Below, piece after piece: positions 53,630 through 57,376 of a stretch of 64,000 bases of DNA. Both the position numbers and the translations under genes were made by a program. A model generated the notes under the pieces. The model was not told the DNA's origin. It did no database searches and worked only from the letters and a program-made list of their open reading frames with translations. The first letter of the stretch is position 1. Every line of letters starts with the position of its first letter. Source of the stretch: Chitinophaga vietnamensis (GTDB taxonomy: Bacteria; Bacteroidota; Bacteroidia; Chitinophagales; Chitinophagaceae). Location of the stretch: NCBI RefSeq assembly GCF_902167635.1, contig NZ_CABHMS010000005.1:310001-374000 (forward strand). Reading direction: 5' to 3'.

Positions 53630-53693
53630 AGTGCTTGAAAAAACGCGAAGGTAGTGTTTTTCCCGGGCAGCGGGCTTATAATCTTAAAATGAG

Positions 53694-53730
53694 AACAGCA
53701 ACCAGGGAATACCCTGGTTGCTGTTTTTTT
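53694..53730 (+). terminator. orphan terminator between divergent genes
   Basis: AACAGCAACCAGGG pairs with CCCTGGTTGCTGTT around AATA, followed by a T tract on the plus strand. No plus-strand gene lies immediately upstream. On the minus strand it would sit in a long phnA leader. The remaining 53631-53899 sequence shows a possible leftward -7 box (TACTTTTG, 53858-53865) but no gene. Confidence 0.6.
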
Positions 53731-53899
53731 CTGTGATATCAGAGTGGAATTGGGTAACGTACAATAGAATCAGGCCGTAAAATGCGTGGAGGTGTTCAAA
53801 AATGGCAGGATTCCGGTTTTTCAATCAAAATGTCCTAGCTGACCACCTTGTATGATGCAAAAGTACAGTGCCATGGCGGATTTCAGCTATTTTGTATAT

Positions 53900-53949
53900 C
53901 TACAACGCAACTACAGCCTGGCGAAATAGATATCTACAAAACATCTACA
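53900..53949 (+). promoter_or_regulatory. CTACA operator array before the TPR/LuxR regulator
   Basis: CTACA begins at 53900, 53911, 53934 and 53945, spacings 11, 23 and 11 bp. Three copies extend to AYMTCTACAR-like words. It immediately precedes the -7 box of the regulator gene, where a -33 element would be expected. The same arrangement (11, 22, 11) occurs at 56414-56462. Confidence 0.65.
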
Positions 53950-53966
53950 GGTTGATGTAGAAACTG

Positions 53967-53974
53967 TATTTTTG
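53967..53974 (+). promoter_or_regulatory. -7 box TATTTTTG of the TPR/LuxR regulator
   Basis: Ends four bases before the ATG at 53979, so transcription probably starts at or next to the start codon. No -33 TTTG is present. The CTACA array occupies that place. Confidence 0.6.
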
Positions 53975-53978
53975 TGAC

Positions 53979-55916
53979 ATGGACCGTATCATAAAAACCG
54001 TATCTAGACTCCTGACTATAGTAGTAGCTCTCCTGTTGTTTGTATATCATGCTACTGCACAAACGCCAGCCGACTCACTGAAACGCGTGTTAGCCCAGCC
54101 TAACCTCACCCCTGAAGAGCAGGTGGTGACCCGTATCCGCTTGAGCCGCGCCCTGGTGAGTACCGACCGCAAAGAAGCCCTGGCTGTTGCTGAAGTTGCG
54201 CTGAATATGAGCCGTTCCCTGAAAGATGTGAAATATGAGGCCCAGGTGCATTCCTCTTTGGTGTCCTTATTATATGCTCAGGAAGATATCAGCCGCTCGC
54301 ACCGGGAACTGGATTCTGCCTTCATGCTGGCCGAAAAATCCGGTGATAAAACTACGCTGATCAATGTCTGGTACCGTAAAGGATGGCTGGAAAGCCGCGA
54401 AGGCAAGCCGCATGATGCCGTAAAAAGTTTTCAGACCGCCCTCAAAACAGGCGAGGGGCTGAAAGAAAGTACTTTCACCACCAGTATATATTATAACCTG
54501 GCTGCTATTTACGCCGACTGGAACGATCTCGAAAACCAGTATCGTTACGCTTCCATGGCCCTGGTAACAGCCCGCCGCAACAATGACCCCGACGATCTCG
54601 TAAATGCTTACCAGGCGCTGGCCACCAGCTTCGAGCACCAGTTTACCAGCGATACTACCAATCGTGTGAAGCTGGATTCCGCCCTGTACTACAACCGTGT
54701 TGCCATTGAATTATATAAGGAAAAGAAATCTGCGATCAGCTTTCCCAGCACCATGGGCGTTTTGGCCCTGAACAACGCCAACCTGTATGCAGAGTTCTTT
54801 CCGCGCAGCTACCGCGATTCCGCCCAACACTACCTGGATATCGCACTGGAAAATGGCAAGGCCACAGATCAGCAGGAGCTCATCGCCAGTTGCTACGGCA
54901 TGATGAGCAGCTTTGCACTGGCCGATGGCAACTATGACCGTGCCTCCGACCTGTTGCTGGTTGCCATGGAAACGATGTTGCGCTACCCCGCGCCCAACAA
55001 CAGTATCATGGCCCATCTTACGGAGGCCTTGTCTGACGTGGCCGAAAGAAAACATGATTATCCTCTGGCCCTCAAATATGCAAGAGATCATAATAAATAT
55101 TACGCTGCTGCCTTCGATGCCGAGAAAATGAGCATTGCCAAGCGGCTGGAAGCCCAGTACCAGGCCCGCGAGCGCGAGCAACAGCTGCTTGTCTTGCAGG
55201 AGAAAGCGGCTTTCAACAAACATCTCAATACTATCTATGTTATCCTGATCATTATCTGTATCCTCGCGCTGTTGTTCCTCTTCCGCTCGTACCACTTCCG
55301 GCTGAAATCTACGATACAACAACAAAAGTTACTGGAGCAGGAGAAAGAAGATGCCGCTTTGCAGGCCCGTTTGAAGGCAGAAGAGAGCCGCCGCCTCCAG
55401 CTGGAAAAGCAGGAAGCCGAGCTACAGGTGCGTCTTGCAGCAGAAGAAGCAGCCCGCCTGCAAGCCGAGCAAGAGCTGATGCAGGCCCAGAAAGAACAAT
55501 TACAGAAAGACCTGCTGGCAGGTACTCTACAGGTAGAAGAAAAGAACGAGCTGCTGCAGACGCTTCAAAATAAACTCTCCGACAAGGCCGTAGACCGTGG
55601 CCTGGCGGGGCAGATCACGCGTATGATAGACCAGCACCGCCGTCTGGATGAAGACCTGGAAACTGCCAAAACAGAACTGGAAAATATTCATCCGGAATTT
55701 TTTAACCGTTTGCTGGAGAAATCTGCCAATACGCTTACCCGCCTGGATCTGAAGCATTGTTCCTATATTTCTATGGGACTTACTACAAAGGAAATTTCTG
55801 TGCGTATGGGTGTGGCGCCCAAGAGCATCCTGATGTCGAGGTATCGTATCAAGCAGAAGTTGGGCCTCGGGAAAGATGAGGGCCTGGATGCTTATCTGAT
55901 GGGGCTCGGGAAATGA
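53979..55916 (+). CDS. TPR sensor with LuxR-like C-terminal helix-turn-helix
   Basis: 645 residues. A signal peptide or signal anchor (residues 5-27) is followed by about eight TPR-like helical hairpins (residues 30-400) predicted in the periplasm. A membrane helix (NTIYVILIIICILALLFLF) lies near 415-435, then a long charged coiled coil with EEAARLQAEQE-type repeats. The C-terminal DNA-binding region contains CSYISMGLTTKEISVRMGVAPKSILMSRYRIKQKLGL, similar to GerE/LuxR helices. It resembles the one-protein sensor-regulators common in Chitinophagaceae. The CTACA array upstream suggests autoregulation (inference). Confidence 0.85.
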   Translation: MDRIIKTVSRLLTIVVALLLFVYHATAQTPADSLKRVLAQPNLTPEEQVVTRIRLSRALVSTDRKEALAVAEVALNMSRSLKDVKYEAQVHSSLVSLLYAQEDISRSHRELDSAFMLAEKSGDKTTLINVWYRKGWLESREGKPHDAVKSFQTALKTGEGLKESTFTTSIYYNLAAIYADWNDLENQYRYASMALVTARRNNDPDDLVNAYQALATSFEHQFTSDTTNRVKLDSALYYNRVAIELYKEKKSAISFPSTMGVLALNNANLYAEFFPRSYRDSAQHYLDIALENGKATDQQELIASCYGMMSSFALADGNYDRASDLLLVAMETMLRYPAPNNSIMAHLTEALSDVAERKHDYPLALKYARDHNKYYAAAFDAEKMSIAKRLEAQYQAREREQQLLVLQEKAAFNKHLNTIYVILIIICILALLFLFRSYHFRLKSTIQQQKLLEQEKEDAALQARLKAEESRRLQLEKQEAELQVRLAAEEAARLQAEQELMQAQKEQLQKDLLAGTLQVEEKNELLQTLQNKLSDKAVDRGLAGQITRMIDQHRRLDEDLETAKTELENIHPEFFNRLLEKSANTLTRLDLKHCSYISMGLTTKEISVRMGVAPKSILMSRYRIKQKLGLGKDEGLDAYLMGLGK

Positions 55917-55920
55917 AAAA

Positions 55921-55947
55921 ACCCGCACAGCAAATGCTATGCGGGCC
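55921..55947. terminator. bidirectional terminator between convergent genes
   Basis: CCCGCA-c-AGCA pairs with TGCT-a-TGCGGG around AA, with one mismatch. The A tract on the left gives a T tract for the leftward DUF4870-like gene. On the right, CCTCTTTC is weaker. Confidence 0.75.
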
Positions 55948-55990
55948 TCTTTCGGGATTAACATGGGTTAACAACTGTGTGTGTTAGCGC

Positions 55991-56329
55991 TTAATTTGTC
56001 TGGAGAAAAACAAACTTGTTTTCAAATAATTTTCCGATCAATGGTAATGGCTTGTTGGTGCCGCTGTTTGCATTGATGATACCAAACACCATAAAAATGA
56101 ATGGTAACAGGGATAAAATGGACAGCGGGGTTTTTAATGCCGGTACAATAACTAATACGATACTTATTGCGATACTCCAGACAATGCCTGCAATCATGAG
56201 GCCCAGCGCTTGTTCCAGGTGGTAGCTGATCAATCCGTTCTTTTCGCGTTCATCTTTGGTTTTTACAAAAGCAATGATCCAGCCTATCAGTGTAATGTAA
56301 GAGATGATCGCCCACTGTTTCGGTTTCAT
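55991..56329 (-). CDS. DUF4870/Tic20-like small membrane protein
   Basis: 112 residues from MKPKQWAIISYIT. The longer open frame to 56401 was rejected because the promoter box lies inside it. Three membrane helices are visible, with the family pattern SYITLIGWIIAF, YHLEQALGLMI and LPLIGKLF. The function of DUF4870 proteins is unknown. The gene converges on the TPR/LuxR regulator, and its promoter carries the same CTACA array, making it the prime candidate target. Confidence 0.85.
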   Translation of the reverse strand: MKPKQWAIISYITLIGWIIAFVKTKDEREKNGLISYHLEQALGLMIAGIVWSIAISIVLVIVPALKTPLSILSLLPFIFMVFGIINANSGTNKPLPLIGKLFENKFVFLQTN

Positions 56330-56371
56330 GGTAGTTAATCGTTTAACAATTGATAAAAAATGATAACGAGG

Positions 56372-56379
56372 CAAAGGTA
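56372..56379 (-). promoter_or_regulatory. -7 box TACCTTTG of the DUF4870-like gene
   Basis: Perfect TAnnTTTG on the minus strand, 43 bp before the start codon. The -33 position reads TTATG rather than TTTG, consistent with activator dependence. Confidence 0.6.
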
Positions 56380-56413
56380 TCCCCGGAAGTATTCCGTGCA
56401 TAATTTGGGGCTA

Positions 56414-56462
56414 CTACACGCTATCTACAGGAGAAAAAAAGAGGTACTACAAAACCTCTACA
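56414..56462. promoter_or_regulatory. CTACA operator array before the DUF4870-like gene
   Basis: CTACA begins at 56414, 56425, 56447 and 56458, spacings 11, 22 and 11 bp, all multiples of 11. It lies about 50-100 bp upstream of the expected transcription start. Its orientation relative to the gene is opposite to that of the array at 53900-53949. Confidence 0.65.
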
Positions 56463-56484: not shown

Positions 56485-56844
56485 TTAATTGCTTAGTTCT
56501 CTTCTTATGCGAACGGTTTTGGGTTGGATGACTGTGAAAGCCTGAGAGATTTTGCTTTGGTGTTGTTGTATCACGTGGTTAACTATCTCGGCTTGTATCA
56601 GTGATGGGGCATTGCCTAATCTGATAAGCACGATGCCTGAATGTAATTTCTTCAATCGGAAAACGAGTTCTCCAAAATCTTTATCCTGGGTTATCAAAAT
56701 GCTCGAGGTTTGATTGGCCATATCAAGAACGGTATCATCATCTGCGCCGGGACACAATTCCAATATATATTGCACCTCGAAACCCGATTGGCGGAGTAAT
56801 GTTACAATAGGTCGGTCAACGCCTTCGTCTGCCAGAAACTTCAT
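56485..56844 (-). CDS. DUF5615 PIN-like toxin
   Basis: 119 residues. The short PIN-like fold has acidic residues in MKFLADEGVD and ITQDKDFGELVF. DUF5615 proteins are predicted ribonucleases paired with DUF433 antitoxins. The DUF433 gene overlaps it by 4 bp upstream. The pair resembles VapBC modules in layout but is a different antitoxin class. Confidence 0.9.
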   Translation of the reverse strand: MKFLADEGVDRPIVTLLRQSGFEVQYILELCPGADDDTVLDMANQTSSILITQDKDFGELVFRLKKLHSGIVLIRLGNAPSLIQAEIVNHVIQQHQSKISQAFTVIQPKTVRIRRELSN

Positions 56845-57071
56845 ATAGCCGTAGAATAAATCTCGTCACCTCTCAACAACTGGGCTGCAAAGATTAAAGC
56901 AGCTTGAACTTGTTCTTTGGTTAAATGAGGATGTGCCTGTAAAACATCGTCGATAGATTCGCTTACAGCAAGCTTTTCCAGGATTTGCTCTACTGTTATC
57001 CGGGTCCCTTTAATAACAGGCTTGCCCATCATTATTTTAGGGTTGATTTCAATAAGATTAAGCTGATCCAT
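56841..57071 (-). CDS. DUF433 antitoxin
   Basis: 76 residues from the ATG at 57071. The frame continues upstream but MDQLNLIEINPKIMMGKPVIKGTRITVEQIL is the normal DUF433 start. DUF433 is a winged-helix DNA-binding family that accompanies DUF5615. The stop overlaps the toxin start by 4 bp. A TATTTTTG box 25 bp upstream (57097-57104) supports the start. Confidence 0.9.
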   Translation of the reverse strand: MDQLNLIEINPKIMMGKPVIKGTRITVEQILEKLAVSESIDDVLQAHPHLTKEQVQAALIFAAQLLRGDEIYSTAI

Positions 57072-57096
57072 GTGCTTTATGTTTTTGTCTTTATAA

Positions 57097-57104
57097 CAAA
57101 AATA
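57097..57104 (-). promoter_or_regulatory. -7 box of the DUF433/DUF5615 module
   Basis: TATTTTTG on the minus strand with a 25-bp gap to the antitoxin ATG. No -33 TTTG was found at the normal spacing. Confidence 0.5.
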
Positions 57105-57376
57105 CTGAATTTCCTGTCGGCTCTTCAGCCGGAATATCTTCCTCATGGACTATCTTGTTAGGTGAAGAAACTGGTTAACAACGGCCAAAATTACTGCTCA
57201 TAAATTTTTGATTTGTAAATTGTTTCTTAACAGAAGAGGCATGATGCCAGATGCTCTTCGTCCATTTTCATGCAACATCTGTCCATTAACGAACATTCCG
57301 TTCCGATCTTTCTATTGAAAATCAATGTATCTTCTCACTGGCATTTTATTCGTAGCAGCAGCTACAAATTGTTTTT

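Follow-up and report, generated by a model that had tools for sequence, protein, structure and literature searches.

What binds two matched repeat arrays that bracket a regulator gene and a gene for a small membrane protein, and why do these arrays face opposite directions relative to their genes? The question is raised by a stretch of 64,000 nucleotides (nt) of Chitinophaga vietnamensis (contig NZ_CABHMS010000005.1, positions 310,001–374,000), here called the window. In it, two CTACA arrays flank the gene of a protein with a tetratricopeptide repeat (TPR) domain and a LuxR-type helix-turn-helix (HTH) domain, together with the convergent gene of a DUF4870-like protein. Comparison with related genomes makes it likely that the TPR/LuxR regulator binds both arrays, activates DUF4870 and a candidate small RNA, and probably represses itself.

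Both arrays share the layout CTACA-N6-CTACA-N17/18-CTACA-N6-CTACA. All eight CTACA start positions given in a first-pass annotation of the window are exact, and the two TAnnTTTG boxes that it reported, TATTTTTG and TACCTTTG, are present (Table 1). The CTACA-N6-CTACA pair occurs four times in the window, where 0.05 would be expected, and no shuffle out of 100 had four or more. The whole 6.3-Mb genome has nine pairs, four of them inside arrays 1 and 2, and because its read-backwards control has 17, the pair is not generally enriched. On these counts the arrays are a private operator-like element, not a common genomic motif. A broader CTACA regulon within this genome was rejected, as a composite pattern of array plus box returns only arrays 1 and 2 and one unsupported two-site match (G000:C8).

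The opposite directions turn out to follow a rule. The strict four-site pattern is found in 41 of the 79 Chitinophaga genomes surveyed, with one match in the read-backwards control. Removal of tandem-repeat matches in G003, G085 and G015 leaves 62 arrays in 38 genomes. The regulator lies on the side pointed to at 36 of the 62, and DUF4870 lies on the reverse side and opposite strand at 23; nine are single divergent intergenic arrays with both genes, and 12 adjoin neither. No exception in orientation is seen among the 50 arrays adjoining the regulator, DUF4870 or both. That the regulator lies ahead of an array and the target behind it is, in this survey, a general rule and not an anomaly. The first-pass annotation was correct about the directions but called unexplained what is the normal state across the genus.

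The distance from array to promoter is also fixed. The target-side TAnnTTTG box starts 34 bp, rarely 35 bp, from the array edge, and the composite pattern built on this spacing finds 98 sites in 43 of the 79 genomes against three control matches. For all 12 arrays adjoining neither gene, the reverse side carries a TAnnTTTG-like box 34 or 35 bp away, with five of six letters at L081, and 11 have a gene on that side, L081 showing none. Outside Chitinophaga, the box (at least 5 of 6 letters) stands at 34 bp in 40 and at 35 bp in three of 43 arrays, and at any other offset at most three times. One further set of offsets, conditioned on 34/35 bp, was left out of this evidence.

The retrieved part of a study on Flavobacterium psychrophilum (PMC9723704) places the TAnnTTTG box at -12 to -5. 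By that register, the target-side array edge would fall near -47 and adjoin the -33 element. At DUF4870, the placement of the array relative to the promoter is as expected of an activator site. Both arrays had been placed at the -33 position; this holds for array 1, which overlaps the -33 region of the regulator, but not for array 2, whose edge is 34 bp from the DUF4870 -7 box and just upstream of the -33 region.

Array 1 appears to serve a second promoter by the same rule. The composite-pattern search brought to light a third box, TACTTTTG, overlooked before, on the minus strand 34 bp to the left of array 1 and in front of a candidate RNA. The two-gene circuit proposed earlier thus gives way to at least three predicted transcripts, whose starts in the window would be 53853 and 56367 on the minus strand and 53979, leaderless, on the plus strand.

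The regulator side is built differently. In 16 orthologues of the window's clade it reads array-N5-TATTTTTG-N4-ATG, with the box 5 bp past the array end, so that the array would cover about -67 to -18 with the ATG at +1. Since array 1 overlaps the core promoter of the regulator, autorepression is favoured over autoactivation. The earlier proposal of an activator-dependent, autoregulated circuit fits the DUF4870 geometry in its first part, and in its second would be read as negative, not positive, autoregulation. The regulator mRNA in the window is predicted to be leaderless. The same prediction (TAnnTTTG-N4/5-ATG; window 53967–53981) extends to the window's clade and several divergent members.

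In the mechanism we propose, the arrays would be the operator of a transmembrane TPR/LuxR regulator encoded between them. The periplasmic TPR domain would sense an envelope-side signal, and a cytoplasmic coiled coil would align the HTH domains on the four phased CTACA sites. The bound array, ending about 47 bp upstream of the target transcript start and beside the -33 element, would recruit or stabilise RNA polymerase. DUF4870 would be activated through array 2 and a small RNA of about 165 nt through array 1. With array 1 lying across its core promoter, the regulator would most likely limit its own synthesis.

Table 1. Features of the locus, in window coordinates.
Feature	Position	Strand	Remark
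Candidate small RNA, about 165 nt	53686..53853	-	Terminator-like hairpin at about 53694–53725, T-run weak in the window
Leftward promoter -7 box TACTTTTG	53858..53865	-	34 bp from array 1; in 17/17 loci including the window
Array 1, four CTACA at 53900, 53911, 53934, 53945	53900..53949	+	Points at the regulator gene
Extra inverted CTACA (TGTAG)	53956..53960	-	Within the stretch that widens the gap from array 1 to the box
Regulator -7 box TATTTTTG	53967..53974	+	ATG 4 nt downstream; same layout in orthologues
TPR/LuxR regulator gene, 645 amino acids (aa)	53979..55916	+	Assigned by domain matches, model and profile comparison
DUF4870 (HOTT/Tic20-like) small membrane protein gene, 112 aa	55991..56329	-	Convergent with the regulator
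DUF4870 -7 box TACCTTTG	56372..56379	-	34 bp from array 2
Array 2, four CTACA at 56414, 56425, 56447, 56458	56414..56462	+	Points away from DUF4870

The arrays are kept in relatives together with the regulator and DUF4870. A lack of conservation, which the first-pass annotation had named as grounds for refutation, is not what the comparison shows. Both four-site arrays are present in all seven close orthologues first examined (66–72% identity), array 1 in the 16 orthologous loci of the window's clade and array 2 also in further orthologues. Of the 79 genomes, 55 have a regulator homologue, counted where a match at E<=1e-20 covers more than the TPR part; the labels 'HK' and 'full' for homologues were assigned from the aligned query range. 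The strict array is found in 38 of these 55 genomes versus none of the 24 without a homologue (Fisher p 1.4e-9), or 39 of 55 versus 2 of 24 with tandem repeats counted in.

Of 85 regulator genes, 65 have an array with no more than 3 mismatches in 20, but the sample was mostly chosen by arrays (L069–L107 were mostly fetched around them) and does not give an unbiased rate. Among the 20 misses, L087 and L102 are start-codon artefacts and L208 probably is too. Nine DUF4870 genes unlinked to a regulator (L162–L168, L171, L172) have the array and the 34-bp box, consistent with action in trans.

The association reaches beyond the genus. A looser array is found in 20 of 394 family genomes (29 matches against 10 in the control), and 16 of the 20 lie outside Chitinophaga. 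The regulator lies beside the array in ten of the 16, and the other six look spurious, G380 being a tandem repeat. Nine of the ten have DUF4870 and the regulator diverging from the array (L214, L216, L220–L223, L225, L229, L230) and one, L215, has the regulator only.

Loci chosen by protein, the best 80 of 194 relatives, have the array in 68, and the misses at L300, L304 and L311 are start-codon artefacts. Outside Chitinophaga, with which [Flexibacter] sp. ATCC 35208 is counted, the array (at most 3 of 20 mismatches) stands at 43 of 46 such loci, none being found at L318, L324 and L363, and DUF4870 is divergently upstream of the regulator in 40 of the 46. These loci come from Pedobacter, Mucilaginibacter, Sphingobacterium, Olivibacter, Parapedobacter, Filimonas, Taibaiella, Chryseobacterium, Salegentibacter, Sinomicrobium, Algoriphagus, Parachryseolinea and a member of Sphingobacteriaceae.

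In a maximum-likelihood tree of 71 regulators, the 17 convergent loci form one clade with a Shimodaira–Hasegawa-like approximate likelihood ratio test (SH-aLRT) support of 100. In this tree, made by a quick method with hand-assigned labels, the midpoint root has divergent loci to either side. Hence, the convergent two-array layout of the window is best read as derived, one clade's variant of the more widespread divergent layout.

The regulator sequence begins with a segment resembling a signal peptide or transmembrane helix, followed by a TPR solenoid, a hydrophobic stretch at about 418–435, a predicted coiled coil and a C-terminal LuxR/GerE-like HTH; the first segment and the hydrophobic stretch were read directly off the sequence. 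Its TPR and GerE matches in Pfam all fall just under the cut-offs (GerE PF00196: E 8.6e-5, 22.5 bits, cut-off 23.5). Of 38 family members, 37 match GerE PF00196 at E<=0.001 (best 1.7e-7) and 23 match TPR_12. The Pfam scan of the regulator and these 38 members returned TPR and GerE families only, with no receiver or kinase domain and no OmpR-type winged-helix Trans_reg_C domain.

An AlphaFold2 model built on 38 sequences (mean predicted local distance difference test score, pLDDT, 81.9) gives a TPR solenoid, a long helix with the hydrophobic stretch, low-confidence helices and a helical C-terminal domain. Its matches among solved structures are TPR proteins, including the peptide sensors NprR and Rap, and a profile comparison with the PDB matches the C-terminus to the LuxR-type HTH of EL222 (E 1.7e-4). 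The regulator appears membrane-anchored, with the N-terminal sensor and the C-terminal HTH in one chain.

For the DUF4870 protein, the start was taken at 56329 (MKPKQ...), which is aligned in relatives. The window protein matches DUF4870 (PF09685) at E 3.1e-4 and 21.1 bits, below the cut-off of 25; among 29 family members, 22 reach E<=0.001 (best 6.7e-7). Its model is all-helical and confident (pLDDT 91.2), and its best fold match, though a weak one, is chain B of the TOC-TIC complex 7xzi (E 1.3). The consulted part of a 2024 paper (PMC11628618) puts DUF4870, as the HOTT family, in the Tic20/MamF superfamily and describes it as widely distributed and uncharacterised except for magnetosome members.

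Back-to-back with the regulator gene, on the other side of array 1, is the candidate small RNA. In all 17 loci, the window and its 16 orthologues, a conserved block some 100 nt long lies after the leftward box (in L073 and L090, inserted repeats have taken the place of most of it), and after the block comes a terminator-like hairpin whose sequence varies between groups. Identity among nine representatives is 0.55–0.71 and falls to 0.09–0.37 at more than 140 bp from the array. Most indels that separate near relatives are of a single nucleotide, with one of 11 nt, and the loci compared have no reading frame in common. At the level of sequence, the block has the features of a small RNA gene: its own promoter box, an intrinsic-terminator-like hairpin and no conserved open reading frame (ORF).

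A 5' stem GAGUUCA/UGAACUY can form in 15 of 15 sequences free of large insertions, with other pairs in the window, a count made without a shuffle control. Compared with shuffles, the window RNA has the more stable predicted fold (z -3.1), the strong terminator hairpin included; RNAalifold support for internal structure is weak at -1.1 kcal/mol. Covariance model R1 finds the block in 15 of the 79 genomes, once each and only at this locus, where 13 of the 15 had built the model and two insertion-bearing orthologues were missed. A wide spread of the RNA was rejected on this result. Membership in an Rfam family was rejected too, the six matches being weak and all far below gathering scores, as was pairing with the mRNA starts of the regulator or DUF4870, for which z ranged from +1.8 to -2.7 over 17 loci without a consistent signal.

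Several observations weigh against the regulator acting on the arrays as proposed. LuxR/GerE proteins usually bind dyads, and direct repeats at 11 bp are typical of PhoB/OmpR-type regulators. The strict array is missing in 17 of the 55 regulator-bearing genomes; among these, a degenerate array stands at the regulator in 11 and only at DUF4870 in two (L120, L190), G062 has none and three were not covered. Six regulators (L202–L204, L210–L212), and several others too, have no array. G010 has one composite site and no regulator at E<=1e-20, and G015 and G085, likewise with no regulator, owe their strict-pattern matches to 11-bp tandem repeats, which were set aside. Among the DUF4870 promoters listed, the box is at 34 bp except at L192 and L229, where the array is present with no -7 match at that distance. 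The gap between array 1 and the regulator box is 17 bp in the window, not 5 bp as in the 16 orthologues. In the divergent clade, the distance between array and regulator box, where seen, is about 70–90 bp, so that autorepression would not hold for all loci.

Part of this evidence would suit a different DNA-binding protein, such as a PhoB/OmpR- or NarL-type response regulator, that binds the arrays and has the TPR/LuxR gene as one target. As four direct repeats with an 11-bp pitch, the arrays look like Pho boxes, and the 17 genomes without a strict array and the lone site of G010 point the same way. Against it, the strict array is absent from every regulator-free genome of the genus once tandem repeats are set aside, and arrays track the regulator across genera. 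Moreover, the two kinase-type operons examined, in which a TPR histidine kinase and a NarL-type regulator stand in for the TPR/LuxR protein, have no array at DUF4870. Direct repeats are also no bar to a LuxR-type HTH, as ComA can use them according to the retrieved part of PMC4797271. We regard another binder as unlikely. Still less probable is a repressor role of the arrays at all three promoters, with a signal lifting the repression: array 1 does overlap the regulator promoter in the window's clade, but the target-side array lies upstream of the -33 region at a rigid 34/35-bp spacing, which repressor sites seldom need.

That the arrays are chance or simple tandem repeats has practically no weight left. 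The strict pattern does catch perfect or near-perfect 11-bp tandem repeats in three genomes, and the looser family-level pattern has the background noted above. Yet the shuffles and the strict-pattern control rule out such an origin for arrays 1 and 2, the spacers vary while CTACA stays, and several genera conserve the arrays. As to the block left of array 1, it could instead be regulatory DNA that is not transcribed, or else represent a 5' leader or a small ORF. The YjdM/PhnA-family gene that comes next on the left in the window shares the strand of the predicted RNA, the T-run after the window's hairpin is weak, and so is the RNAalifold support. However, the hairpin is kept at every locus with differing sequences, left neighbours vary among orthologues and some are on the opposite strand, the indels leave no common frame, and identity drops sharply past the block. 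A reading other than a small RNA thus appears rather improbable, and the regulator with its two arrays and three predicted transcripts stays the preferred explanation.

Several side observations concern targets and relatives. The reverse-side genes at arrays that adjoin neither the regulator nor DUF4870 include those for a WG-repeat protein, an SPFH/Band 7 protein, a repeat protein of 324 aa and a protein of 136 aa. A YWKNG-repeat protein of 324–325 aa with a signal-peptide-like start is a recurrent array target (L070, L071, L072, L082, L086, L251, L252, L263). The protein of L070 has no Pfam match, and no regulator homologue lies within 4 kb of the gene in L070, L071, L072 and L086. A second DUF4870 group (MKNQTLAIIAYITLIGW...) has a shared upstream end and no array at its seven loci (L173, L289–L294), which, with the two kinase operons, served as controls for the link between arrays and the regulator. 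TPR histidine kinase, NarL-type response regulator and DUF4870 form one operon-like row in L126 (7952–11260), where the domains were checked, and in L125, neither having an array at DUF4870.

The regulator gene of L202 is directly behind a likely ABC transporter gene, with AATACTC repeats before its TATTTTTG box. In G003 (L107 and other contigs), perfect 11-bp tandem repeats of CTACACCGGGT at contig ends and inside are taken as unrelated to the operator. Next to array 2, a toxin-antitoxin-like pair of DUF5615 and DUF433 genes occupies the minus strand of the window at 56485–57146, and several orthologues have other genes there.

On a wider scale, the loci could represent a Bacteroidota-wide envelope-sensing regulon, with a membrane-anchored TPR/LuxR regulator acting on a four-site CTACA operator at the fixed 34-bp spacing and the Tic20/MamF-like DUF4870 protein as the core output, in which one Chitinophaga clade gained a small RNA back-to-back with an autorepressed, leaderless regulator. 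We hold this wider picture tentatively, at somewhat less than an even chance. Among the literature matches listed, in the form of titles and abstract starts, none describes a CTACA regulon or the candidate RNA, and the consulted part of PMC10197871 is irrelevant.

For DUF4870 (HOTT), the analysis yields a regulator, an operator and a promoter rule that can be put to the test, and it predicts a new small RNA. The composite search pattern picks out candidate regulon members in unannotated Bacteroidota genomes. Moreover, the same TPR sensor type is linked to DUF4870 through two outputs, one-component and two-component.

Among known systems, ToxR and CadC are membrane-spanning one-component regulators with sensor and DNA-binding domain in one protein. 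The regulator here would have the opposite domain order, with a TPR sensor and a LuxR-type HTH. The Pho boxes of PhoB/PhoP-type regulators are direct repeats at 11-bp pitch upstream of the promoter; the arrays differ by the CTACA sequence and by two pairs with a skipped turn, and the regulator by having no OmpR-type domain match. LuxR/GerE activators such as ComA of Bacillus subtilis share the GerE-like HTH and, in the case of ComA, the use of direct repeats. Unlike them, the regulator is apparently membrane-anchored with an N-terminal TPR domain, and its putative operator has four sites at 11-bp pitch and a rigid 34-bp promoter spacing. The kinase operon of L126 ties the same TPR sensor type to DUF4870 but with a two-component output and no CTACA array at that gene. 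The DUF4870-like protein of the window resembles the HOTT/DUF4870 family by a Pfam match below the cut-off and by the weak fold match to 7xzi_B.

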